Shown in pieces: positions 2,910 to 16,372 of a DNA stretch of 36,121 bases (position 1 is the first letter of the stretch; each line of letters starts with the position of its first letter). The position numbers and the translations under genes are program-made. Origin of the DNA: Candidatus Scalindua sp. SCAELEC01 (GTDB lineage: Bacteria; Planctomycetota; Brocadiia; Brocadiales; Scalinduaceae); the NCBI GenBank assembly GCA_004282745.1, contig SHMT01000038.1, forward strand, positions 1 to 36,121. Direction: 5' to 3'. The notes under the pieces were generated by a model. That model did not search any database. It had not been told where the DNA came from and worked only from the letters and a program-made list of their open reading frames with translations.

Positions 2910-3947
2910 ATGGAGGAATCAATTTTTCAGAAAGATAAAATGGCGAAACTTGGAAAGCAAATGAAAAGGAGAGGAGTGTCTCATATCTATTTCGTCCATG
3001 GTACATGGGCTGGTAATAGTCCTTTTGGAATGATTGCAAGACTTCCTGGTATCCCGCTAGCAGTAAAACATGAATTAGAAAGGATTGTAAAAGAACAGGT
3101 GGATGAGACTTTAGGAGATCTTGGGAACTATACAAAGAGTTACGTCAATATGTTCAAAGAGTCTATTGGCAGTGATATTTCATGCCCTCCACCTTTTCAG
3201 TGGGGTTCAGGGAATTACCATAGTGCAAGGGTGAGGGGAGCCATAAGGCTGATTAAAAAATTGGCCAAGGATATCAATAACCCATCTGGAAACGAAAGGA
3301 TTTTACTTATGGGACATAGCCATGCCGGTCAGTTATTTGCCCTCTTGACAACGTTTCTTGGGGATGAAGAGATGTCACGTTTGGAAACTAGCGAAGGGAT
3401 ATCTACGGTGGAGGAGCTTGTCAACGTTGTCGGACTCGACAAAGAAGTATATAAAGATATTGCTCAATTAAAAGAAGATATAAAGAAGATTGATAGAGTC
3501 TATTTAGATATTGTTACTTTTGGAACGCCTCCGCGCTATAAATGGGGAAAAACAAAAATAAAAGGTGTGGAAACAAACTATCGTTTACTACATGTTATTA
3601 ATCATCGTTATGAGACAGTCTCTATATTCGGTCTGTTAAATACAAGGGATGGTGACTATGTGCAACAATGGGGAGTGGGTGGAACAGATACAGATATTTT
3701 TGATAAAGAAAAAAACAGTGAATTAGAGAAAATCCTAGGAGAGGAGCAATACTATATCTCTATTAAATCTCTTTTTGGGGACACAAGGCATATACCTGAT
3801 CGTAATTATGGAAAACCACTCTTGATAGATTATGCAGATGAGGGGGGGGATCTAAAGGAGACTCTTTTAGGGCATGGAGCATACACTCGCAAAGAAAAAA
3901 TGTTATTTAATACACAACTCATAGCAGATGAATTTTACAAAGATTGA
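2910..3947 (+). CDS. Alpha/beta hydrolase (lipase/esterase-like), cytoplasmic
   Basis: The protein has 345 residues. An oxyanion-loop motif, HIYFVHGTWAG, lies near residues 25-35, and the nucleophile elbow is GHSHAG with Ser137, a GxSxA variant of GxSxG. Later, DIVTFGTPPRYKWG and HVINHRYETV resemble the strand and loop regions that carry the acid and histidine in lipase-like folds. No signal peptide is seen. The AAGGAG site 13 bp before the ATG supports the start. The substrate is unknown; a lipid ester is a guess from fold and neighbours. A second, lipoprotein hydrolase lies at 8.1-9.5 kb in the same direction. Confidence 0.75.
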   Translation: MEESIFQKDKMAKLGKQMKRRGVSHIYFVHGTWAGNSPFGMIARLPGIPLAVKHELERIVKEQVDETLGDLGNYTKSYVNMFKESIGSDISCPPPFQWGSGNYHSARVRGAIRLIKKLAKDINNPSGNERILLMGHSHAGQLFALLTTFLGDEEMSRLETSEGISTVEELVNVVGLDKEVYKDIAQLKEDIKKIDRVYLDIVTFGTPPRYKWGKTKIKGVETNYRLLHVINHRYETVSIFGLLNTRDGDYVQQWGVGGTDTDIFDKEKNSELEKILGEEQYYISIKSLFGDTRHIPDRNYGKPLLIDYADEGGDLKETLLGHGAYTRKEKMLFNTQLIADEFYKD

Positions 3948-4091: not shown

Positions 4092-5012
4092 ATGAAAAAA
4101 TATTTGATTAATAGGCTCATGTTTTTGGTAGTTTTGAGCATTCTGGCGGTAGGGTGCGCCTCGACTGACTCAGCAAAGAAAATAAAAGCCTTTTCAGACG
4201 CAACGGTATTAACCACACAAAATACCATCAATGCCTTTGATGTTGTAGAACGTAAGTATTACGACTCTCAAGTTGCAAAAATTACAGCAAACTATGATAC
4301 AGATGGCTTCAATCCAAACTCAATTGAACGATTCTTAGAACCTCCTCAGATTGAAGCTCGTATCCAAGTTTTAAATGGGCTACAAAAGTACTCTGAGAAA
4401 CTATCAGTAATAATGGGAAACGAACAGTTGGATGAATTTGATGAAGAGACAAGAAAGTTGGGAGAATCACTTACAAAGGTTAACAATAGTTTTGCAAAAA
4501 ATAACATTCTTAGCGCCGCTCCCTTTGATTCTAATCAGATTCAGATCTTTACCACGGCTGTCAATGCTCTCGGCCGTTGGTTCATTGAACATAAGAGGGA
4601 GGAGGGTGTGAAAAAGAGTGTTGGAGAAATGCAAGGAAATGTGGGAATTATTTGCGAACTTTTTGCAAAAGATATTGGTACCGTAGGTCAAACAGGGTTA
4701 CGGGAACAGTTATGGAGATCATATAGTGACATTATGAAGGCACAAGATGCGTTCATTCTCCAGAATAAAGATACGTTAGATCCTATTGCAAAAAGAGATG
4801 AGATTAAGTATCTCGCGTCTTTAGTAATAGATCAGAAAAAAGCGGATGAAACGCTTAAATCCGTACAAAAGGCATTAGAGCAGCTTAAAGAGACTCATAG
4901 CAAACTCAACGAGGCATTTTCTGACAACACGATAGAAATTGACAATTTAATAAAGCAACTCAAAGACGAAGGAAGGCGAATTAAGAAATTTTACGAATCG
5001 TTAGAAAAATAA
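4092..5012 (+). CDS. Lipoprotein, mostly alpha-helical, unknown function
   Basis: The 306-residue product begins with a lipoprotein signal peptide: MKKY, a hydrophobic run, and the lipobox LAVGC with Cys22. The mature protein is rich in charged and helical segments, and its last ~60 residues have a coiled-coil pattern. It should be anchored to a membrane on the extracytoplasmic side. The GGAGGGAG site directly before the ATG is strong. The next gene starts 22 bp downstream and is probably co-transcribed. I do not recognise the family. Confidence 0.75.
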   Translation: MKKYLINRLMFLVVLSILAVGCASTDSAKKIKAFSDATVLTTQNTINAFDVVERKYYDSQVAKITANYDTDGFNPNSIERFLEPPQIEARIQVLNGLQKYSEKLSVIMGNEQLDEFDEETRKLGESLTKVNNSFAKNNILSAAPFDSNQIQIFTTAVNALGRWFIEHKREEGVKKSVGEMQGNVGIICELFAKDIGTVGQTGLREQLWRSYSDIMKAQDAFILQNKDTLDPIAKRDEIKYLASLVIDQKKADETLKSVQKALEQLKETHSKLNEAFSDNTIEIDNLIKQLKDEGRRIKKFYESLEK

Positions 5013-5034: not shown

Positions 5035-5373
5035 ATGAGTAAACCGACAGATTCAGACTTAAGGGCAGCATATCAAGACCTTTATGATCATTTGGATGAC
5101 GCATATTGGGCGGCTACCACCATTGAAGCAAAAGATAAAATTCGAGGTATTTCCGAGGTTGTCTCTGATCTTTTAACCGATATGAATCAAGCAGATCTCT
5201 CTTTGCGTACAGAGCAGTATCTTTCTCTTAAAAAATCAATTAAAGGTGTAAACAAAAACCTAGACAAATTAAAAAAAGAGATCGACGATATTATTAAAAA
5301 AGTAAAACTGGCCAGGCAGATCTTAAATGTTATTGATAAGGCTCTGGATACGGCTGCTAAATTTTTTGTTTAA
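5035..5373 (+). CDS. Small helical protein, unknown function
   Basis: The 112-residue product is strongly helical. A lysine-rich coiled-coil-like stretch follows residue 65 (for example LDKLKKEIDDIIKKVK), and the C-terminus is amphipathic to hydrophobic (LNVIDKALDTAAKFFV). There is no signal peptide. An AAAGGAG site lies 8 bp before the ATG. It follows the lipoprotein by 22 bp, so the two are probably one operon. The hydrophobic C-terminal helix could be membrane-active, but that is speculation. No family recognised. Confidence 0.65.
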   Translation: MSKPTDSDLRAAYQDLYDHLDDAYWAATTIEAKDKIRGISEVVSDLLTDMNQADLSLRTEQYLSLKKSIKGVNKNLDKLKKEIDDIIKKVKLARQILNVIDKALDTAAKFFV

Positions 5374-5394: not shown

Positions 5395-5546
5395 GGCAGG
5401 GACTGAGGTTACAGAGAAGGAAGATATTCTTGCCGATGCAAAGTGTATGTTCGTTGAATCTGAGCAGGGGGGACGTGCATGGAGGTATTAAGGATGCAAC
5501 AGATCATATTTGGGAAGAGTTAAAAGAGTATTTACATTTAATTTAA
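5395..5546 (+). pseudogene. Possible C-terminal remnant of a broken gene
   Basis: Protein-like composition persists but changes frame. One frame reads ILADAKCMFVESEQGG, and another then reads GIKDATDHIWEELKEYLHL and stops at 5544-5546. No single frame covers both parts and no start codon is evident. This suggests a decayed open frame just before the phosphoesterase gene. The parent family is unknown. Confidence 0.3.
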
Positions 5547-5560
5547 TGGGAGGAAATCAA

Positions 5561-6367
5561 ATGGCCAAATTTATCCAATTAAGCGATCTTCATATTCGTA
5601 AAAGCAATGGCAAAGAAGAAAATGGTAATTGCGAGAAGATTGTTAAACATATAATCAATAAATATTCTGATGACAAACCTGTGGTTTTGTTGACAGGTGA
5701 TATTGTAGATGATGGTAGAGCCGAGCAATACAAAAATGCAGTTAATATTTTAAAGCCTTTGGTTGATAACAATTTCACTGTTTTAGCAAGCCCGGGTAAT
5801 CATGATTATGGTCCCATGGGTAATTTCTATACCGAAGTGTCACAGAGAAATTTTCAAAATTACATTTTGTGTGAACTACTTGGGAATCAGGAGGCACAGA
5901 AGGCCGGAGTCAAGATGGAAGACCTCTATCCAATGGTTACGGTTGTAGATGATGTAATATTTATAGGGATTGATTCTGTTGTTGGGGCAGAAGATCAGTT
6001 TATGCACTTTGCCAGTGGTGAGGTGGGCGATGAGCAGAGGGAAAAGTTAAAAGATATATTAAGAAGCCAAAAGGATTCTGGGAAAAAGATTGTATCATTT
6101 TTTCATCATCATCCGTTCAACAGAAAATTTGTTTTGGAATTAGATGATTCTAAAGAGGTAATGAAAATTTTGACCGGAAATGTTGATGTCCTCTGTTTTG
6201 GTCATGATCATAAATCTGAAGTGTGGTCAAGTATGCATAACATTGACTGGATTTTTGCATCAGGTAAATCTACCAGAAGAAATAAGAATTATAAATTTCA
6301 GTTTAGAGAGGTGGCCATTGACGGGGATGATAATAATGTCGCTATGGTTACTTTTAAACGAGATTAA
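5561..6367 (+). CDS. Calcineurin-like metallophosphoesterase
   Basis: The 268-residue protein carries the full set of metal-binding blocks of the family: SDLH (Asp9, His11), GDIVDDG near 47, GNHD near 79, FHHHPF near 181-186 and GHDH near 213. The family binds two metal ions and hydrolyses phosphomonoesters or phosphodiesters such as nucleotides or nucleic acids; the substrate here is not evident. There is no signal peptide, so it is probably cytoplasmic. I place the start at the ATG preceded by GGGAGGAAATC; an upstream in-frame ATG at 5510 lacks such a site. It lies between the helical-protein operon and a broken gene. Confidence 0.88.
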   Translation: MAKFIQLSDLHIRKSNGKEENGNCEKIVKHIINKYSDDKPVVLLTGDIVDDGRAEQYKNAVNILKPLVDNNFTVLASPGNHDYGPMGNFYTEVSQRNFQNYILCELLGNQEAQKAGVKMEDLYPMVTVVDDVIFIGIDSVVGAEDQFMHFASGEVGDEQREKLKDILRSQKDSGKKIVSFFHHHPFNRKFVLELDDSKEVMKILTGNVDVLCFGHDHKSEVWSSMHNIDWIFASGKSTRRNKNYKFQFREVAIDGDDNNVAMVTFKRD

Positions 6368-6397
6368 ATTTTTTTATTTTAGAATGGAGAAATTAAT

Positions 6398-6867
6398 ATG
6401 GTTGATATTCATTTATTTAAAATGTTTATTCGGCTGATTGTGATGATGTGAACACAAAATATGATTCCCCTGCAGGCCACTCATACTTCTTAAATGATGA
6501 AAAAGAGTCCCCAAAAAACAAAAAACTTGTTTCTGGCTTCGTGGTTAATCACATTTTACATTCTATCAAAACAGGTCGTGTTCAAGACGAGCCTCAAGGA
6601 AGTAGGATCATAATTCTCTAAGAGAATCAGCTAAAATTTGAGAGAAGGAGTAGTGAATACATTTTCTCAAAGAAGACCAAAAACATTTTGTTGAAGTGGA
6701 TTGTAATTAAACTTGTCGAAAAGGATTTCTTCAAAAAAATAGATTATTTCGAGGATTATCCAGGTTATCAATTACCAGTCCAGTCTGGTATAGTCGAATG
6801 GAAAATTACTGATGGAACAACTTGTGTGTTAGTCGTTAGAATATGTCGATATGTACTGGTCAGATGA
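6398..6867 (+). pseudogene. Broken gene with one frameshift and one in-frame stop
   Basis: An ATG behind AATGGAGAAATT opens MVDIHLFKMF, then the frame must shift by one base near 6425. A single frame then continues from YSADCDDVNTKYDSPAGHSY (6427 on) to 6867, interrupted only by a TAA at 6619-6621. Coding character continues on both sides of that stop (SGFVVNHILHSIK before, KNILLKWIVIKL after). The intact product would have had about 155 residues. It starts 31 bp after the phosphoesterase gene and was probably its operon partner. Family not recognised. Confidence 0.5.
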
Positions 6868-7076
6868 ACACAAAAGACTAGGATTAAGATAATTAGACGG
6901 TTCATATTCTATTAAACCAATCATATGTATGAGCGGATAAGATTGAATACCTATTTTTGCCTTGAAAGTGTATTGATTGAGAATCATTAAATTTAAATAA
7001 GGGGGGAGCTTTATTTATGGGGAAGTTACTATGTAGATATGGTCACTAAAGTATCGTTACGTGAAAACCTTGACAT

Positions 7077-7519
7077 TTATTTTGAGGCAAAATCAAACTT
7101 TTTCCATCTAAATACAACAGGGCTTGAATTTATTTCGGCGACCCCTTTTAATATTCTATTTCGTAATTCATCGACAGAATTAACTCTTATGTGCATTAAA
7201 AAGGTTCGAGCCATTTTGCCAAATAACACTTCTACAAGATTAAGCCATGAACCGTGCTTTTGTGTATGAACATAAAGAAATCTATTAGGTCGACTTGATA
7301 ATATTGCATAGTCTCTTTTGAAATATGTGCAGAATGATTGTCTAAAATAATTCGTATGGTATATTCTTTGGGATAATATCCATCCAATTCTTTTAAAAGT
7401 TCGATGAATTCTTTGCTCTGATGACGATCGTGTACTTGGTCTATTACATGCCCTGTATTCAAATCTAAAGAAACCAATATGCTTAGTGTTCCTAACCGCT
7501 TGTATTCATAGTCACTCAT
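7077..7519 (-). pseudogene. IS630-family transposase remnant, frameshifted
   Basis: On the minus strand, frame one gives YEYKRLGTLSILVSLDL, VHDRHQSKEFIELLKELD and IRIILDNHSAHISKET, the DDE catalytic core of IS630-family transposases. A one-base frame change near 7295 is needed to continue into HTQKHGSWLNLVEVLFGKMA and to the end PVVFRWKKFDF at the stop (7077-7079). The N-terminal DNA-binding part is missing upstream of 7519. The element is inactive and marks this stretch as an insertion zone. Confidence 0.85.
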
Positions 7520-7539
7520 GACTTGATGGCTTTTACCGT

Positions 7540-8020
7540 ATTGCTAAAAGCAGAAAAAGTAGTAGAGGCTCCAGAAGAATAAGCAATAGAAGGAAGAAGT
7601 CATAGTGGAAGAAGCCACAGAGCAGATTGATTAACTGATGAAAAATACTGTCTTGATGGCGTATGGGCTGGTTGTCCAAATTTAGTGCAAATTGAGTTAG
7701 CTATTTATTCTGGAGAGCGACGATTAAAACCTGTAATAAGTAGGGGCTGAAAATGTCAGATGGTGAATGATTAGCCACTTACATTAACACCTGTTAAAGA
7801 TGGTAACGTGTTTACCTGGGAAAATTATATTTCCTACTTCTTAGGATAAAAAATTCAAACAATTGGAACCGAAAGGCATTTTCCTGTTATGAAAACCTTG
7901 CATTAAAGCATATCTTCAGTGAAATATAATTGAGGATAAAGAGATAAGAGAATTTTGAATACTTGATAGTACAGGTGATTGGTAATTATGATCTTGACGA
8001 TCTGTTTTTCATTATCGTGA
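7540..8020. other. Decayed spacer with scraps of coding sequence
   Basis: Several short, protein-like stretches occur in changing frames, for example YCLDGVWAGCPNLVQIELA and SGERRLKPV on the plus strand near 7643-7747, each ended by early stops. No start or ribosome-binding site connects them. The parent gene cannot be named. Confidence 0.4.
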
Positions 8021-8077: not shown

Positions 8078-9481
8078 ATGAAAAGAAAAAACCTTGTGTT
8101 TCGTATACTACCGATATTTTTGTTGATTTCGATAACATTTTTAATTGGTTGCGGTAATCCTCCAAAACTTTCCAAAAAAGAAAAAGCGTATGGTACAAAT
8201 AAAGAAAAATACGCGATTTTTCATAGAGTTGCTGAATCAGACCGTAGTTTAGGACTCAAGTATCCTGGATTTCTTGTCGGTATTGAGAAGGGATACAGAG
8301 AAAAGATTGATCCGATGAATACGTACGATGTTGTTGATAAACTGAATAAAGATACAACATCGAAAAAAAATTATGCAAGAGTTAAAGACATTCTGGGTGA
8401 TAGAAAATTAACCTTTGTTTCACATGTCGTGCAATATCATCTTAAATCTGGTATAAACGGAAATCCATATAATGGGATACCATATATTGATGAGAATGTT
8501 TTATATAATGCATATGACAAGGATTTTAACTCTTCAAATGCGTATGCAAACAGCAAGATTGCACTTGATAAATTAGAGGAGCAAATTACTAAAATAAAGG
8601 ACAGTGAGCAGTATACTCACATTTTTCTCTATTGTATGGGCTGGAATACAGACCAGCAGGAATCTCTGAGAAATTACAACAGTCTTTTAGGGTTAATTAT
8701 AGAGAATTACAATGGGGACAAGTCTTTCAGACCATTGTTTGTCGGAATATCATGGCCTTCTTTATGGAAATGGAATTTCTTTAAATATACAGGAATAATT
8801 TCAAGCTACTTTACAAAAGCAGATGATGCTGATGAGGTAGGGCTCATATGGGGGAACAGGGTTTTACGAGAAATATTGGTTACGCTTAAAAAAGAAAAAA
8901 AGGTTCCATTAATTCTCATTGGGCACAGTCTTGGAGCCAGGGTACTGACAAGGGCACTATTCAGCTCACCGTTAGTACCTACTGAATCTACAGATGAAAT
9001 AAGAACGGATGATGTTGATCTTGTTATTGGACTGGAAGGGGCTTTTAGTGTTAGAAGGTTTCTACATGGGGAGGGGATTGAAGGTTATCCGTATGAAAGA
9101 TTTAAAGATTATGCCAGGAAATTCGTCTTTACCTGGAGTAAATATGATAGCGCGAATTCAGTGCCTCTTATTTATGGTACTCGGTATATAGGTGGGACGC
9201 CTGGCTATAAATACACAAAGAAGTTTGGAAAAAGTTTTGACCATTTTATGATTAAAATAAGTGGGACTGACAATAATTATAATAGAAATTATGATAGTGT
9301 GCTGGATGAAGAAAAATGGAATCAGAGCTTTCGGATTTCTTCAAAAATTTCAATTGTCGATGCTTCAGAGCTCATTTATTATCGTTCGTACTTTAAAGGT
9401 GGCAAAGCTCATAACGATATTTATACACCCGGAATCGCAAAATTTATCTGGAATTGTATTGATAATATTCAAAGAAATTAG
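8078..9481 (+). CDS. Lipoprotein alpha/beta hydrolase
   Basis: The 467-residue protein starts with a lipoprotein signal (MKRKN, hydrophobic run, lipobox LIGC with Cys25). A hydrolase domain follows: a strand and oxyanion region near FLYCMGWNTD (about residues 185-195), FVGISWPS, then LILIGHSLGARV with the nucleophile Ser284 in a perfect GHSLG elbow. Candidate acid and histidine regions are GLEGAF and the C-terminal KAHNDIY. It should act outside the cytoplasmic membrane or at the outer membrane. The start is set by CAAAGGAG 7 bp upstream of the ATG at 8078; an in-frame codon at 8024 would spoil the signal peptide. It is distinct in sequence from the hydrolase at 2910. Confidence 0.83.
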   Translation: MKRKNLVFRILPIFLLISITFLIGCGNPPKLSKKEKAYGTNKEKYAIFHRVAESDRSLGLKYPGFLVGIEKGYREKIDPMNTYDVVDKLNKDTTSKKNYARVKDILGDRKLTFVSHVVQYHLKSGINGNPYNGIPYIDENVLYNAYDKDFNSSNAYANSKIALDKLEEQITKIKDSEQYTHIFLYCMGWNTDQQESLRNYNSLLGLIIENYNGDKSFRPLFVGISWPSLWKWNFFKYTGIISSYFTKADDADEVGLIWGNRVLREILVTLKKEKKVPLILIGHSLGARVLTRALFSSPLVPTESTDEIRTDDVDLVIGLEGAFSVRRFLHGEGIEGYPYERFKDYARKFVFTWSKYDSANSVPLIYGTRYIGGTPGYKYTKKFGKSFDHFMIKISGTDNNYNRNYDSVLDEEKWNQSFRISSKISIVDASELIYYRSYFKGGKAHNDIYTPGIAKFIWNCIDNIQRN

Positions 9482-9530: not shown

Positions 9531-10137
9531 TGTCTGAATGGCTGGGAGGCTGGGAGGCTGGGAGGGCGACGCTCTTTCTGGCGGGGACGGGTAAAACCGA
9601 AAACCAAATCTATTGTAGTATAAGTTCTGTGTACGGTAATTAGATTATATCTACGTCAAACTAAATAATTTAAAGGAGAATGACCATACAAATTAAGGAG
9701 AATGTTAATTTACCTTTCCTCTTTTTGTACAAAATTGCCGAGACAGTTAAGCGCTGTACCGAGTGTTTGGGATGTCGCTTTTACTGCACATTACAAATCT
9801 AGATGAGCCTTGATTGACTCTTTTATTCTTTGCGGTTCTCTGTGAGTTCTATTGGCAGATTGGTCCCTACATGTTTCTAATATTTTAGATTATTAGGTCG
9901 GGATGAATCGCTACCGTGTTGACTTCATTTTTTGTATGTTTATAAAGGTTGATTCGAAAAAAACCATAATATCTCGTGAATGCAGTAGCTATCTGGTGGG
10001 TCTTTTATTGCTGAATTCTGGATAAGCTGATCAAGTCAGAACATATCAAATCTCTCACCCTTTTGATGGTTATGTCTCAACCAGACTTGTTTTACTCCTA
10101 GTCATTTAAAGAAAAACAGCACCTCTCTTTCTTCGCA
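9531..10137. other. Non-coding spacer with a short tandem repeat and a P3 scrap
   Basis: It contains tandem GGCTGGGA units at 9540-9566 and, at 9590-9607, AAAACCGAAAACCAAAT, a motif shared with one end of the P3 repeat near 31.65 kb. No gene with a start site and coding character is visible. Confidence 0.45.
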
Positions 10138-10449: not shown

Positions 10450-11379
10450 ATGTCCGGAACGTTTATGAAGGGTCTAACGTTAACCAAGGTGGTGGATGGT
10501 GATACGGTAAAAATAGAAATAGAGAGCAAGGAAGAATCTCTACGTCTCTGTTGTCTCGATACTGAGGAGAGTTGGGCCGGAGGTTCAAAACCCGTAACAA
10601 ATGCAGGAAAACTCGCATCGAAATGGGCAAAGGAATTCTTTGGGGTTGGGGAAGATGGTTTTCCTGTTGATGGAGATGTAATTAAAATAGATGTTGAGTT
10701 TGATACCAATGATCCTGTACCTGAATGCATCAAGAAACACCGGGGCAATTACGGTAGATTGATTTGTTATGTGCATAAGGGCGGCGAAAATTATAATTTG
10801 AAGGCAGTAGAAAATGGTTGGAGCCCATATTTCGTAAAATACGGACGTTCCCGATTGTATCACAGTGAATTCCTGGCTCATGAAGCTATTGCCCAATCAA
10901 AAGTTCTTGCAATCTGGAACCCTGTAACGAATGAGGGCGGTAAAAGCCGTAATTACAATGAAATGATACCCTGGTGGTATTTACGTGACAGCGTTATTCA
11001 GGACTATCGTAGAGTTGGTATCCAAGGTGGTGTGCAGTCTGTACGTCTCGATTATGAAGATATTGTTGAGGCGGCAAAAAGCGGGAGCGATCTGGCAGTT
11101 CTGTGTGATCTGCAATCGGGTGTTAACAAATGGCCCGGTGATGGCGCATTAATATATGCAGGGTCCCAGCAACATAAATTCAATCTATGGATACCGGATA
11201 GAGACTCACAATCTTCCCAGTCAATCCTCAACCTTATCGATACCAGGTACTCCAGTAGAGGACGTGGATATGTATACGTGTCCGGTAAGGCAACTCTTTA
11301 TCCTGAGAATGATAACGGAAAACCTCAAATTGTATTAAACGATATTAAGCAACTTTCAGACCTGCCGCCCAGTATGTAA
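10450..11379 (+). CDS. Staphylococcal-nuclease-like (SNase/TNase) domain protein
   Basis: The 309-residue protein has an N-terminal SNase-like domain: KVVDGDTV (Asp16, Asp18), RLCCLDTEES with Arg32 and acidic residues 37-40, and NYGRLICYV with Arg103. These correspond in order to the Arg/Glu/Arg catalytic set of thermonucleases. The spacing fits the family, which cuts DNA or RNA at phosphodiester bonds using calcium. The last ~100 residues (from about ALIYAGSQQHKFNLW) look beta-rich, possibly a second OB-like nucleic-acid-binding domain. No signal peptide is evident, so it may be cytoplasmic. AAAGGA precedes the ATG by 8 bp. It is first in a plus-strand unit with a lipoprotein and a very large membrane protein. 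Confidence 0.8.
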   Translation: MSGTFMKGLTLTKVVDGDTVKIEIESKEESLRLCCLDTEESWAGGSKPVTNAGKLASKWAKEFFGVGEDGFPVDGDVIKIDVEFDTNDPVPECIKKHRGNYGRLICYVHKGGENYNLKAVENGWSPYFVKYGRSRLYHSEFLAHEAIAQSKVLAIWNPVTNEGGKSRNYNEMIPWWYLRDSVIQDYRRVGIQGGVQSVRLDYEDIVEAAKSGSDLAVLCDLQSGVNKWPGDGALIYAGSQQHKFNLWIPDRDSQSSQSILNLIDTRYSSRGRGYVYVSGKATLYPENDNGKPQIVLNDIKQLSDLPPSM

Positions 11380-11565
11380 GATCTCATTGGGAAAGATAAC
11401 CAAGTTCCAATATGGGTAGTGTTCGTACAAAGATATGTTTGATAATTCTAAAAATCAGCTGAAACAATAGAGGGATTTACACTACTAGTTGAAAATAATA
11501 AGGGTGAAAATAAAATCTCAAGCGGGGCAGAGTTGATTTTTTCAACTCTAATGTGGAGATAGTCA

Positions 11566-12474
11566 ATGGGTAAATTCGAGCGAAGAGGTGTATTAGTTTA
11601 CTGCCTGGTTGGCCTAATACTTTTAACCGGGTCACTGGGATGTTGTTGTGGCCGAGATAGGGACAGTGGGCATGTACGTAATACACATAAAAGGTTTAGG
11701 AATATTGTTACATCAGTACAGAAACAGGATAGCGGTATTAAATCAGATACCCTGTCTGATAGCCTGATAAAGGTACAAGAGCCGTCTGATTTTCCGGTTG
11801 AAATTATCAATAGAATAGTAATTGAGGAAGAGCATAAGAAAGATGACAACATAAATAACGTTGATAAATGTGAATGTAAACCAAAAGGTAAAGTTATAGA
11901 GACTGCTGCTACCATTCCATTAAAGATATTTATTGATGGAAAGAGAAACAATGAACCGGGGCAATTATCTATTTTGAAGGGGCTACCTACAGAACTTGTT
12001 GCGGTATCAGATAATTTAGAACTGGAAATAAAACCTGAGCATCGCAAAAAAGTGGATATTTCTCTTGGGGAAATCGACAGGGAAGAGAATAGCCGAATAA
12101 TTAAACTTACGGGGAAAGGATGTGGAGACATAATAATCACAAACAGCAGAGGAGACGTTGTTCGTGTAAAAGTAATAATCCCTCTGAAGGTTTTAGAAAT
12201 TGGAGGGACTGAGCTCGATAAGACCAGACCTTTCACTATTAATAAGTGTAGAGAAACGCCGGTTATCATTGTATCAGATGGTTCAAAACCGGAAGTTGTG
12301 ATAGAACATGAAGTACGGAATAAAATGCATGATATTACGTTAGAAAAAGATGATAAAGGAAGGTGGAAAGCAACGCTTAAGGCTAATGAATCTGCCAACG
12401 TAAATGACGATTATACTATTATATTCAGAAACAAATGTGGTGGAGAAACTACAATCTGCTTAAACGTAAAGTAA
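11566..12474 (+). CDS. Lipoprotein with beta-rich mature domain
   Basis: The 302-residue product has a lipoprotein signal ending in the lipobox SLGC, with Cys26 followed by two more cysteines (CCC). A charged linker follows. From about residue 120 the sequence is beta-rich with repeated short strands (IPLKIFIDG, GDIIITNSRGDVVRVKVI, DDYTIIFRNKCGGETTICL), suggesting Ig-like modules. Paired cysteines in the C-terminal part could form disulfides. It should sit on the extracytoplasmic face. The gap to the next gene is 43 bp, so co-transcription with the giant membrane protein is likely. Family unknown. Confidence 0.75.
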   Translation: MGKFERRGVLVYCLVGLILLTGSLGCCCGRDRDSGHVRNTHKRFRNIVTSVQKQDSGIKSDTLSDSLIKVQEPSDFPVEIINRIVIEEEHKKDDNINNVDKCECKPKGKVIETAATIPLKIFIDGKRNNEPGQLSILKGLPTELVAVSDNLELEIKPEHRKKVDISLGEIDREENSRIIKLTGKGCGDIIITNSRGDVVRVKVIIPLKVLEIGGTELDKTRPFTINKCRETPVIIVSDGSKPEVVIEHEVRNKMHDITLEKDDKGRWKATLKANESANVNDDYTIIFRNKCGGETTICLNVK

Positions 12475-12517
12475 AACCGGATAGCAGAAAGCGTAATTTT
12501 GAAGTTGGAGTTTAACT

Positions 12518-15500
12518 ATGTCAAAAGAGGAAAAGGATGGATTGGGATTACCCCCAATCGGTGGAATCGTTATCGTTCTCATTGCAATAGGTGCGATTTG
12601 GTTTAGTTTTCCTAATCTGAAAAGTTCACGTCCAGGTGAGAAAGGTATCCCTACACAAGTTGTGGACCTTGAAGACGTCAGTGCCCGACTCTGGCAGGAC
12701 CCTTTTGGTCCTGCATATAAACATGAAGGGCATAAATCTAAACAAGACAGTATTCATTCACATTATGCCCTTACCAAGATGATTGCCGGTGAAGACAAAA
12801 AGAGAAGCGGGCCTGAGGCAATACACATTATAGGTGTTATGGTAGAGGGCGGACATTATTTTGAAAATGTTGAACAAAAGCGGAGACGGAGATATGCGGT
12901 AGTATCTGCCCTGAATGTCTCAGGTTACAAACCGGAGAATGCGCAGAGGATTGGCTATATTCTGGCTGACGACCATAAAGCAACAAATGGATACAATCTA
13001 GATTTGCCTGAAAAGATCCCCTTTGAATTATTTATATACAATAAAAAAGAGGAAACCTCACAAGCCAAACCCTTGATCGTACTACTCTGGTTAGATGAAG
13101 AGTTCTTTGGTTCAGATTTTCTTACGAAAATAAATGCTTTAACTGAAGTCCTGCATCTAAAGGGTACCAATTCCGAACAGGAGAGACGAGAGCAGGCAAA
13201 ATTCACAATCCTTGGGCCTGCCTCTTCTACAACTCTCAAGTCAATGGCGGAAGATTTGGGAAATACTAATAAAAAGAATAAATGGAATAATCTGCAGAAG
13301 CTTGACTTTACAATACTTTCACCTACCGCTACAGCGGAGAATAAATTTTTGATGGAAAATGTAGAGTCATATGAAAAGAATATTGGAGAGTTGTTTAAGA
13401 ATACCTTTCCGGATGGGAGGTTCTTGAGAACTATTAAATCAGATTATGCATTAGGGGGGCGTATATATGATGAGCTTACCTTAAGAGGGGTCAAACCGGG
13501 AAAAGACCACATCGTCTTTATCTCTGAGTGGGACACAAATTATGGAAGTTGGTTACCACGATCTCTAGAGAAAGCATTCAAACATAGATATAGCGAGAGT
13601 CGATTTATAGAATGCATTAGGAAGTATGTTAGGACGATCTCCGATGAAATAAGAAAAAGAAGTGAAGTTATAGGTAGAAAACAGGTAAAGACAATACTGG
13701 GAGAAATTAAAGAGAAGAGTGAAGAGTTTGAATATAAGATAATTGATGATATCGTGTATGAAAGAGAATTTTCTGAAGGAGAAGTTAATGAGCTAATTGT
13801 AAAAAGAGGAAATAATTTTACAAATTATGTAATCGAGTTACTGGAAATTTATAATACAGACAACATAGAGAAGACAATAAATGAAGCAGGCAAAGAATTT
13901 GAAACAGCTATTAGGAAAATAGAGATCAGGAACAAGGAATTTTCTGATGAAACAATAACGAGATATAGTTATATCAGAGGTCTGGATGGACATGTGTCAG
14001 ATAGCCTGACCGATACCGAAACCACTCAATTGTCTTATATAAAAAATAATCAGAAAACAGAGAAAGATAATAGGAGGTCCTGGAATGAAACCGATACATC
14101 GAGAGGCAATGGTCAGTTTGATTATCTAGAGCGGATTGGAGGAAAGATCCAGGAGAAAAACAGTGAATTAAGAAGAGAAAGTGATGGACGAATTAAGGCC
14201 ATAGGGGTACTGGGAAGCGATGCGTATGATAAACTTCTTGTCTTGCAGGCGCTTCGAAAAAGCTTTCCAGGAGTAATATTTTTTACTACTGACTTGGATG
14301 CGCGCCTTTCAGATAAAAATGAGATGCGATGGACGAGGAACCTGATTGTTTCATCAAATTTTGGACTGAGTTTACACCCAGATTTGCAAAAAAATATTCC
14401 TCCATTTCGGGATAACTATCAAACGTCAGTTTATCTTACTACCCTTCTAGCGTTAAACACTGATGTTAAATCTTCTCAATATACTCCCAAGCAAGATCAA
14501 ATGTATAGCCTCATAAGACCGAAGATATTTGAGATTGGCCGTCATCATCCTTGTGAATTACTATCGGGTAAGGAATCGACTATAAATAGTGCAAATGTCA
14601 ACCCTATGTTAGAGATATTATATAAGTCAATAAAAAATTCCAATGGTGACATGAAAAATAGTATTTATCCCACATCGCCGACATATATTCCAGATTCAAA
14701 TCGGATATATCTTTTATTCTATAGTGTAATGTTCGGAGCAATATTGGTCGTAGCAGTGGTTGTGAAAAATAAGGGAAAGATTCTTCCGTTAATTCTCTTT
14801 CCCGGTTATGGGGTGTTTATCCTATTGTGCTATTACTCTTATAACGGTTATTTTGATAAAGGCTATTGGCTTGAACCCTTTACCTTGTTTGAAGGAGTGA
14901 GTATTTGGCCTGCTGAGTTGTTGAAGATTGTTTCTATTATATGCTGCGGTCTGTTTTTGTATCTTGGTTCCAAAAGATTAAAAGAAAATATCGTAGAGTT
15001 AGGGGAGAAATATTTTGGTGATAAAAAAGATGACTCCTTATTAACGGAGAAGAATAAGTCTCATTTTCCTATTAATAGTGTGTTATTTATACTCTTAACC
15101 TCTTTTGCGTGTTATCTTTTTTTGTGGGATCTTTTTAATGGAACTTGGGGAGCAATGTATAACTTACTATGGATTGTTCCAACTTCTGGATTCTTCATAT
15201 GGAGGATCGTGGACTATTTAGACAAAATAGCGCCTTCAAGAGATAAGAGAGGAAAAGAGGGTGACGAGAGAAAAGCGTCAGATACTCGTAATCCTACACA
15301 GGTAAAAAAATATTCTTCAGGGCAGAATAAAACAGCTCGTGTCATGAGCAACATGTTTGCGAATCCACAGATAATCGCCATCGTAATAATTCTGTCAGTA
15401 ATCATATCCATATGTTTACTATTAAGCTGGAAATATCTGGATAAATATTTGGGAGTCTATTTTTATGTTATATGGGTAATTCCAATTGGATTGTTAGGAT

Positions 15501-16372
15501 GGTTGATTCTTAAGCATCTCGATACGTTTGCTATAGCTAGGAAACGGAACGGGACAAGAGGTGGTGAAGATAAATATAAAAATATGGCAAATTCTGTATG
15601 GAGCTCCTATTGCTTCTATGGCGAAACTCAAAATCGATACTTCAGAACTTCAGTGATAGTCATCTCCTTCTTCTTTTTCTCTGTCTTTATCATGAAACTG
15701 TTTGGGGAACTCCATGTACCATATCGTGGATATATGAGCAAATATATTGACATGACCATAACCTATATATCCTTTCTCCTCTTTGTCGTTTTACTCTTTT
15801 ACGTAGTTGATGCAGCCGGGCTTTGCGTCCGGTTTGTTCGATTAATAATGAATGAACAGAGAACCTGTTCTGGTGAAACAAAAAGCAAATTTGGTGTTAT
15901 TTCCAGCATAGATGATGTTGCGACAGATCATTGGCTAAAGATTAAGCTGATTGCGGAGAGGACAGCGTCTGTGAACACATTAACCAATTATCCAATTTGG
16001 GTAATACTGTTTATCGTTGTTTCATACATTACTTACTTTGATAATTGGTATGTACCGGTGTCACTCTATCTGCTTTTTGGTATCAGCCTGGTGATACCGA
16101 TATTGTGCAGTTATCTCTTGCACCGCGAAGCTATGGCGGCTAAGGATACTGCTTTAGAGGTTCTGAACAAGGAGCTTATGAAAGAAACCACAAAACTGTT
16201 TTCAGGGCATCAAAAGAAAATTATCAATCAAATCAATCTGTTTATTCGTGAGGTGAAGGGAATTCAAAAAGGGGCGTTTGTACCATTTTTCCAACAGCCT
16301 TTCGTTCGATCAATCGTATACCTTCTTGGTATAATAGGGGCCTTGCTTGGTCAATATTACTCCCATCGTTAA
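12518..16372 (+). CDS. Giant membrane protein with receptor-like extracytoplasmic half
   Basis: The 1284-residue protein starts with one membrane anchor (about residues 14-31). A ~690-residue soluble part then contains patches resembling periplasmic-binding or ABC substrate-binding folds: AIHIIGVMVEGG and NVSGYKPENAQRIGYILADD near 100-150, and IGVLGSDAYDKLLVLQALR near 565 with FPGVIFFTTDLDARL. About a dozen membrane segments follow from residue 728 to the end. Two adjacent two-helix modules look duplicated (LLWIVPTSGFFIWRIVDYLD and YVIWVIPIGLLGWLILKHLD). No enzyme motif is seen. It is probably a membrane sensor or channel-like protein receiving an extracellular or periplasmic ligand. GGAG lies 9 bp before the ATG. 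Confidence 0.75.
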   Translation: MSKEEKDGLGLPPIGGIVIVLIAIGAIWFSFPNLKSSRPGEKGIPTQVVDLEDVSARLWQDPFGPAYKHEGHKSKQDSIHSHYALTKMIAGEDKKRSGPEAIHIIGVMVEGGHYFENVEQKRRRRYAVVSALNVSGYKPENAQRIGYILADDHKATNGYNLDLPEKIPFELFIYNKKEETSQAKPLIVLLWLDEEFFGSDFLTKINALTEVLHLKGTNSEQERREQAKFTILGPASSTTLKSMAEDLGNTNKKNKWNNLQKLDFTILSPTATAENKFLMENVESYEKNIGELFKNTFPDGRFLRTIKSDYALGGRIYDELTLRGVKPGKDHIVFISEWDTNYGSWLPRSLEKAFKHRYSESRFIECIRKYVRTISDEIRKRSEVIGRKQVKTILGEIKEKSEEFEYKIIDDIVYEREFSEGEVNELIVKRGNNFTNYVIELLEIYNTDNIEKTINEAGKEFETAIRKIEIRNKEFSDETITRYSYIRGLDGHVSDSLTDTETTQLSYIKNNQKTEKDNRRSWNETDTSRGNGQFDYLERIGGKIQEKNSELRRESDGRIKAIGVLGSDAYDKLLVLQALRKSFPGVIFFTTDLDARLSDKNEMRWTRNLIVSSNFGLSLHPDLQKNIPPFRDNYQTSVYLTTLLALNTDVKSSQYTPKQDQMYSLIRPKIFEIGRHHPCELLSGKESTINSANVNPMLEILYKSIKNSNGDMKNSIYPTSPTYIPDSNRIYLLFYSVMFGAILVVAVVVKNKGKILPLILFPGYGVFILLCYYSYNGYFDKGYWLEPFTLFEGVSIWPAELLKIVSIICCGLFLYLGSKRLKENIVELGEKYFGDKKDDSLLTEKNKSHFPINSVLFILLTSFACYLFLWDLFNGTWGAMYNLLWIVPTSGFFIWRIVDYLDKIAPSRDKRGKEGDERKASDTRNPTQVKKYSSGQNKTARVMSNMFANPQIIAIVIILSVIISICLLLSWKYLDKYLGVYFYVIWVIPIGLLGWLILKHLDTFAIARKRNGTRGGEDKYKNMANSVWSSYCFYGETQNRYFRTSVIVISFFFFSVFIMKLFGELHVPYRGYMSKYIDMTITYISFLLFVVLLFYVVDAAGLCVRFVRLIMNEQRTCSGETKSKFGVISSIDDVATDHWLKIKLIAERTASVNTLTNYPIWVILFIVVSYITYFDNWYVPVSLYLLFGISLVIPILCSYLLHREAMAAKDTALEVLNKELMKETTKLFSGHQKKIINQINLFIREVKGIQKGAFVPFFQQPFVRSIVYLLGIIGALLGQYYSHR

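Follow-up and report, generated by a model that had tools for sequence, protein, structure and literature searches.

A widespread bacterial receptor family that couples a Venus-flytrap ectodomain to a membrane half, possibly of the insect chemoreceptor channel fold

A 1284-residue membrane protein of the anammox bacterium Candidatus Scalindua sp. SCAELEC01 belongs to a widespread and as yet unnamed family of receptors. Its ectodomain is securely a Venus flytrap, and its membrane half may have the fold of the insect chemoreceptor channels; the nuclease system that a preliminary description had proposed for this gene and its neighbors is absent. The window, meaning the whole stretch of DNA analyzed here, is a complete contig of 36,121 bases from a 4.59-Mb genome, which carries a single copy of the receptor gene (the core). 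The core is best read as a ligand-gated receptor in the membrane, perhaps an ion channel, and in anammox bacteria it stands beside an exchangeable set of hydrolases.

Gene organization of the locus

The three plus-strand open reading frames (ORFs) described earlier are borne out at 10450-11379, 11566-12474, and 12518-16372. They encode, in this order, proteins of 309, 302, and 1284 aa, with intergenic gaps of 186 bp (ORF 1 to ORF 2) and 43 bp (ORF 2 to ORF 3). The island is larger than was first described, with co-oriented genes that have relatives at other core loci starting at 2910:

2910-3947, plus strand: alpha/beta-hydrolase-like protein with a conserved GHSHAG motif (homologue at core locus L017)
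4092-5012, plus strand: lipoprotein (homologue at core locus L123)
5035-5373, plus strand: small helical protein (homologue at core locus L123)
5510-6367, plus strand: calcineurin-like metallophosphoesterase (homologue at core locus L017)
8078-9481, plus strand: alpha/beta-hydrolase lipoprotein (relatives at two core loci, L016 and L157/L018)
10450-11379, plus strand: SNase with a C-terminal domain, catalytically intact by its residues (Pfam, alignment)
11566-12474, plus strand: lipoprotein-like protein, lineage-specific partner of the core (homologues directly upstream of the cores at L041 and L016)
12518-16372, plus strand: core receptor, 1284 aa (hydropathy, alignments, fold search, homologue models)

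The ORF of the alpha/beta-hydrolase lipoprotein was called from 8024, and the ATG with a ribosome site at 8078 is the likelier start. To call the zone IS-rich was an overstatement: a single decayed IS630-type fragment (DDE_3, 7235-7519) lies in the stretches examined. It is surrounded by a gene-poor region with the look of gene remnants, at about 6370-8020. A short tandem repeat, ctgggagg, occupies 9540-9570 in the gap 5' of the SNase gene. A scan of the locus for promoters and terminators returned nothing above chance level.

Three classifications of the locus were considered and rejected. A plasmid-borne system had one partial plasmid match to its name, and a defense system recognized by PADLOC had the SNase domain as its sole match. 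As for an island of eCIS cargo, eCIS_core is present in four genomes (G000, G001, G003, and G004) but missing from two that bear the core (G007 and G009), and the core loci showed no eCIS gene.

The core combines a periplasmic binding fold with a polytopic membrane half

The preliminary description had seen in the third gene a sensor that spans the membrane and has a binding-protein-like half. A receptor of this kind, itself undescribed, is present, built from a type-1 periplasmic binding protein (PBP) ectodomain and a polytopic membrane half. Aligned to its family, the window protein has 1 + 1 + 7 transmembrane (TM) helices plus two tandem 2-TM hairpins:

12542-12598, plus strand: N-terminal TM helix or signal anchor, aa 9-27, N-in (hydropathy; AF2 helix 13-27 in a homologue)
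12818-14587, plus strand: type-1 PBP domain, about aa 101-690, with limits mapped approximately from homologue L041 (fold search, alignments)
14705-14761, plus strand: extra TM helix TMx, aa 730-748, which would return the chain to the cytoplasm (model, charge, alignment)
14777-16360, plus strand: S1-S6, S7a, and S7b region, aa 754-1281 (mapped from the model of homologue L017; positive-inside)
15077-15592, plus strand: lineage-specific tandem pair of 2-TM hairpins, about aa 854-1025 (internal duplication)

The ectodomain was modeled on the homologue at L041 (1103 aa, 43% identical to the window protein), for which a full-length AF2 model built from 62 sequences reached a pLDDT of 79.2 and a pTM of 0.78. 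In a fold search, residues 98-556 of this model matched LivK, LivJ, AmiC, and the ectodomains of mGluR, with a best match of Z 21.9 over 310 aligned residues at 3.8 Å. The model has the two Rossmann-like lobes of the LivJ/LivK-like type, and the predicted ectodomain is clearly a type-1 periplasmic binding fold. Invariant residues persist in it across very distant members and hint at a conserved ligand or interface.

The window protein carries two lineage-specific elaborations. Its PBP domain contains a lineage insert at about aa 350-475, and its hairpins are inserted in the loop between S2 and S3. One hairpin is a tandem duplicate of the other: aligned with each other they score 91, whereas 500 shuffles gave at most 43. 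Near relatives also have extra TM hairpins between S2 and S3, and as far as the loci seen show, the subclade with these hairpins is also the one with the lipoprotein.

A family of nitrifiers, anammox bacteria, and others

Pfam, NCBIfam, and PADLOC gave no acceptable match to the core of the window, and none of the three holds a model for its family. A scan with the single window sequence gave no match, while an alignment-based profile of the soluble half found 185 species-level loci among 84,980 species genomes, the best 80 of which were retained. The family includes Nitrospira, Nitrosomonas, Nitrosospira, Nitrotoga, Nitrospina, Nitrococcus, and anammox genera, and also Variovorax, Accumulibacter, Methylococcales, and Desulfobacterales. 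Within the source family, the core occurs besides the window in G004 (on two contigs), G007, and G009, and in 0 of 13 other genomes.

A full-length profile matched 42 of the 81 genomes in the family of Nitrosomonas nitrosa (G310) against 7 of 398 Pseudomonadota, a sample that overlaps the former, and it matched 40 of 198 genomes in the phylum of a Nitrospira. The enrichment is one of raw genome counts, uncorrected for phylogeny. Most of these matches run end to end across both halves, and the gene is mostly single copy.

A tree of 62 members places the anammox cores at three separate positions, a pattern suggestive of transfer or old paralogy. Three genomes of the Nitrosomonas family (G744, G765, and G792) hold two or more core paralogues each, some with in-frame stops, suggestive of turnover. 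Two different cores lie at the ends of two contigs of G004 (C2 and C3; the end of L016 and the start of L019), and the Vps62-like genes that precede them are nearly identical; the array may have been duplicated in tandem. Broken core remnants occupy one syntenic site in two related genomes (L127:9876-10355 and L129:9419-9898), and that of L127 adjoins a probable transposase.

The lipoprotein accompanies the core and the SNase does not

The preliminary description joined the core with an Ig-like lipoprotein and an SNase-like nuclease into one three-gene unit. The lipoprotein features of ORF 2 hold (a hydrophobic N terminus and a lipobox-like GSLGC); its Ig-like character was not confirmed, and the protein has no Pfam or NCBIfam match. 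Its homologues lie directly upstream of the core at L041 (Anammoxibacter), with a better lipobox, LTGC, and a gap of 52 bp, and at L016, with a gap of 144 bp and the gene split over two overlapping reading frames. Elsewhere, one weak partial match was found (G110). The lipoprotein-receptor part of the proposed unit therefore survives, as a pair of neighbors in three anammox lineages (window, L041, and L016) of one subclade, in which the lipoprotein is a dedicated companion gene and probably an accessory of the receptor.

ORF 1 is a genuine SNase-like nuclease by its match to Pfam PF00565 (24.2 bits with a cutoff of 21; E value, 4.7e-5), and in an alignment with the Staphylococcus aureus nuclease, read by eye, the equivalents of D21, R35, D40, E43, and R87 are all kept. 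The protein shows no evident signal peptide, and homologues share the extension at its C terminus. Among 17 genomes of the source family and 294 of the phylum, however, SNase and core share a locus only on the source contig. In the source family, the other core-bearing genomes (G004, G007, and G009) have no SNase match, and three genomes with weak SNase matches (G012, G013, and G015) have no core. In the phylum, 58 of 294 genomes have SNase relatives and 12 have the core; both occur in four genomes (G138, G169, G171, and G284), on different contigs or 0.3 to 3 Mb apart. No SNase was found at the other core loci examined. In G138 and G169, an SNase with the same C-terminal domain sits among genes for eCIS_core-like proteins, subtilases, and metalloproteases, and the core is a broken remnant.

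Homologues occurring apart were the outcome that the preliminary description had itself named as speaking against its unit, and the co-occurrence search found this for the SNase. Since the SNase stands apart from the core and the lipoprotein lies upstream of the core in relatives, the pair is supported and the nuclease is a passenger, one of the exchangeable genes beside the core. In Brocadiaceae-like genomes (L151:4283-9504 and L152:1429-9757), eCIS_core-like proteins, subtilases, and SNases are clustered, which suggests that the SNase is injected cargo there.

Exchangeable hydrolases beside the core

At other anammox loci, the genes upstream of the core encode patatins, Vps62-like proteins, metallophosphoesterases, a subtilase, an astacin, a papain-alpha/beta-hydrolase fusion, alpha/beta hydrolases, and a caspase fusion. 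The alpha/beta hydrolase and the metallophosphoesterase of the window have counterparts at L017, the hydrolase lipoprotein has them at L016 and L018, and the other lipoprotein and the small helical protein have theirs at L123. Downstream of the core are ArfB (window, L018, and L019), a rubredoxin-like protein (window and L018), and an SNF2 helicase (L017 and L019). With neighbors recurring on both sides of anammox cores, the position of the core is partly kept while the cargo changes.

Away from the anammox bacteria, most cores have housekeeping neighbors, and in a Pfam tally of 95 near neighbors, the hydrolase signal comes mostly from Nitrospira loci; hydrolase arrays are therefore not required by the core. 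In many Nitrospira (L042 to L118; for example, L058:2456-13000), SelO, a protein adenylyltransferase, is encoded upstream of the core and two alpha/beta hydrolases downstream, all co-oriented. Mapped on the tree of 62 cores, the hydrolase label changes 8 times compared to a shuffled mean of 10.3, and the arrays are therefore weakly clustered. Coupling of the receptor to hydrolases would be weak, because the neighbors are unrelated outside the anammox bacteria and a few others. The earlier proposal of signal-dependent nucleic-acid processing is likewise without support, since core neighbors outside the anammox bacteria are mostly housekeeping genes or other hydrolases.

The predicted membrane half resembles insect receptor channels

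The membrane half of the homologue at L017 (443 aa), modeled alone from 56 sequences, reached a pLDDT of 80.7 and a pTM of 0.79. In a VIA-align search with this model, insect GR/OR structures fill the first 11 rows and take 18 of the first 21 places, led by BmGr9 (Z 11.9, 271 aligned residues, rmsd 5.3); the fold tool cautions that a shared arrangement of helices can bring helical proteins to Z 13. Foldseek returned GRs as its two best matches and as five of its seven best, including Gr43a and BmGr9, with a probability of 0.91 and E values of 0.04 and worse, which are not significant. A class C GPCR 7TM was dropped as a candidate, if not firmly: GPCRs matched the full-length model via the PBP domain alone and were unranked for the membrane half by itself. 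No sequence kinship of the membrane half with known families was detected: a profile search of the PDB was empty, and Pfam 7tm_7, at an E value of 0.046 in 1 of 56 members, is noise.

The insect receptor channel fold (7TMIC) has been defined by seven TMs, a cytoplasmic N terminus, cytoplasmic loops longer than the outer ones, long TM4 to TM6, and a split TM7 (PMC9998090). The predicted model shares most of these features. The seven TMs are found within a family consensus of eight in the membrane half (TMx plus S1-S7b), TMx being needed because the ectodomain lies outside. The predicted helix order is S1-S6, S7a, and S7b, with S4 and S6 long (47 and 49 aa). Model helices at 234-280, 286-322 (two segments), 335-383, 390-407, and 421-442 (with a break also predicted at 431/434) reproduce the long TM4-to-TM6 anchor and the TM7 split into 7a and 7b. 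In the predicted topology, the N terminus of the 7TM unit is cytoplasmic, and loops of 15, 74, 56, and 61 aa inside compare with 21, 18, and 13 aa outside. K plus R per 100 aa amounts to 20.3, 15.7, 15.3, and 15.0 in the predicted cytoplasmic loops and to 2.8, 9.1, 9.8, and 0 outside.

Against Orco (6c70), the membrane half scored a VIA-align Z of 9.0 (rmsd 5.2 to 5.9 for the Orco and BmGr9 comparisons), while the published screen used a threshold of Dali Z >10 (PMC9998090). Divergent 7TMICs accepted there scored Dali Z 9.1 to 25 against Orco and negative controls 4.0 or less, and that 2023 structural screen found no prokaryotic 7TMIC (PMC9998090). A review (PMC11526382) credits prokaryotic 7TMICs to Himmel et al. 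2023, and these may include the present family. Judged from the models, the chance that the membrane half is a 7TMIC falls just short of even.

Proposed mechanism and competing explanations

We picture the core as a self-contained extracytoplasmic sensor in which a Venus flytrap drives a 7TMIC-like membrane domain, a reading we hold to be about evenly balanced between right and wrong. The PBP domain, anchored by the N-terminal helix, would close on a small ligand, and the closure could be transmitted through the one crossing helix and conserved extracytoplasmic loops to the membrane domain. The outer loops carry the most conserved motifs of the membrane half (LEPF..GVSIWP, PYRG, and YITYFDNW in the window; GEPF..GISIWP, P.RG, and RS.YFD.W in the family) and lie where the ectodomain would make contact. 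The movement might open a pore or alter a membrane complex; given the predicted 7TMIC architecture, ligand-gated ion flux through an oligomer would be the likeliest output. In anammox bacteria, the receptor gene closes a co-oriented array of exchangeable hydrolases, perhaps made or used in the same condition. The fuller proposal, in which nitrifiers and anammox bacteria have conserved a Venus flytrap fused to a 7TMIC that probably responds to a single conserved ligand, is tentative, with nearly as much for it as against it.

The membrane half could instead be an unrelated fold that merely resembles the insect chemoreceptors, in a PBP-linked receptor or transporter-like protein whose ectodomain signals or delivers a ligand. 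Middling Z scores arise by chance in helical bundles, the rmsd is above 5, no sequence links the membrane half to 7TMICs, and the extra TM and the lineage-specific hairpins are consistent with this explanation; yet the top ranking of GR/OR structures argues against it, as do a helix order, topology, and split last helix that are all correct for a 7TMIC. We regard it as a serious possibility, if on balance improbable.

Two other explanations place the function in the neighboring enzymes. One is an anti-invader or self-killing system, in which the receptor senses attack and releases neighboring hydrolases (lipases, proteases, a caspase, and the nuclease). The anammox neighbors are indeed typical effector enzymes, turned over between loci, and the PADLOC candidate family SNc+LTD matches the SNase domain. 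However, the core, lipoprotein, patatin, and Vps62-like proteins scanned had no PADLOC match, the surroundings of the core showed no P-loop NTPase or death-like adaptor, housekeeping genes flank most members of the family, and several neighbors are lipoproteins or have signal sequences, making such a system unlikely. The other is the original unit of receptor, lipoprotein, and SNase as one nuclease system; the three genes are close and co-oriented on the source contig, but the lack of any second shared locus in the genomes searched and the eCIS-associated setting of SNases in other genomes leave it scarcely credible.

Implications and comparison with known systems

Should the membrane half prove to be a 7TMIC, one ancient bacterial protein would unite the Venus flytrap with the insect receptor channel, the two great modules by which animal chemoreception senses ligands, offering a simple system for studying 7TMIC gating and when the fold arose. 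Enrichment in ammonia oxidizers, Nitrospira, and anammox bacteria would make the core a candidate environmental sensor of nitrogen-cycle organisms, whose sensing is poorly known.

Bacterial 7TMR receptors, such as RgsP, also have a multi-TM domain; unlike them, the core has no recognized output domain (kinase, GGDEF, or HD), its cytoplasmic parts being loops and helices alone. Its anammox neighbors overlap with the effector types of NTP-dependent conflict systems, such as calcineurin-like phosphoesterases and caspases, but the core family is mostly without effectors, and none of the anammox core-locus genes scanned encodes the STAND, MoxR, or GTPase component of those systems (PMC7159879). With LivJ/LivK, AmiC, and mGluR, the core has the two-lobed ectodomain fold in common; unlike in these, the domain is held by an N-terminal TM and leads into a polytopic membrane domain, and unlike type-1 periplasmic binding proteins, the core has no identified ABC permease partner. 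The best structural match remains the 7TMICs of the insect GR/OR kind, with which the predicted core shares the N-in, C-out topology, long cytoplasmic helices, and split last TM, whereas it lacks sequence similarity to them, is bacterial, and has, ahead of the 7TM unit, a large PBP domain outside the cytoplasm and one additional TM.
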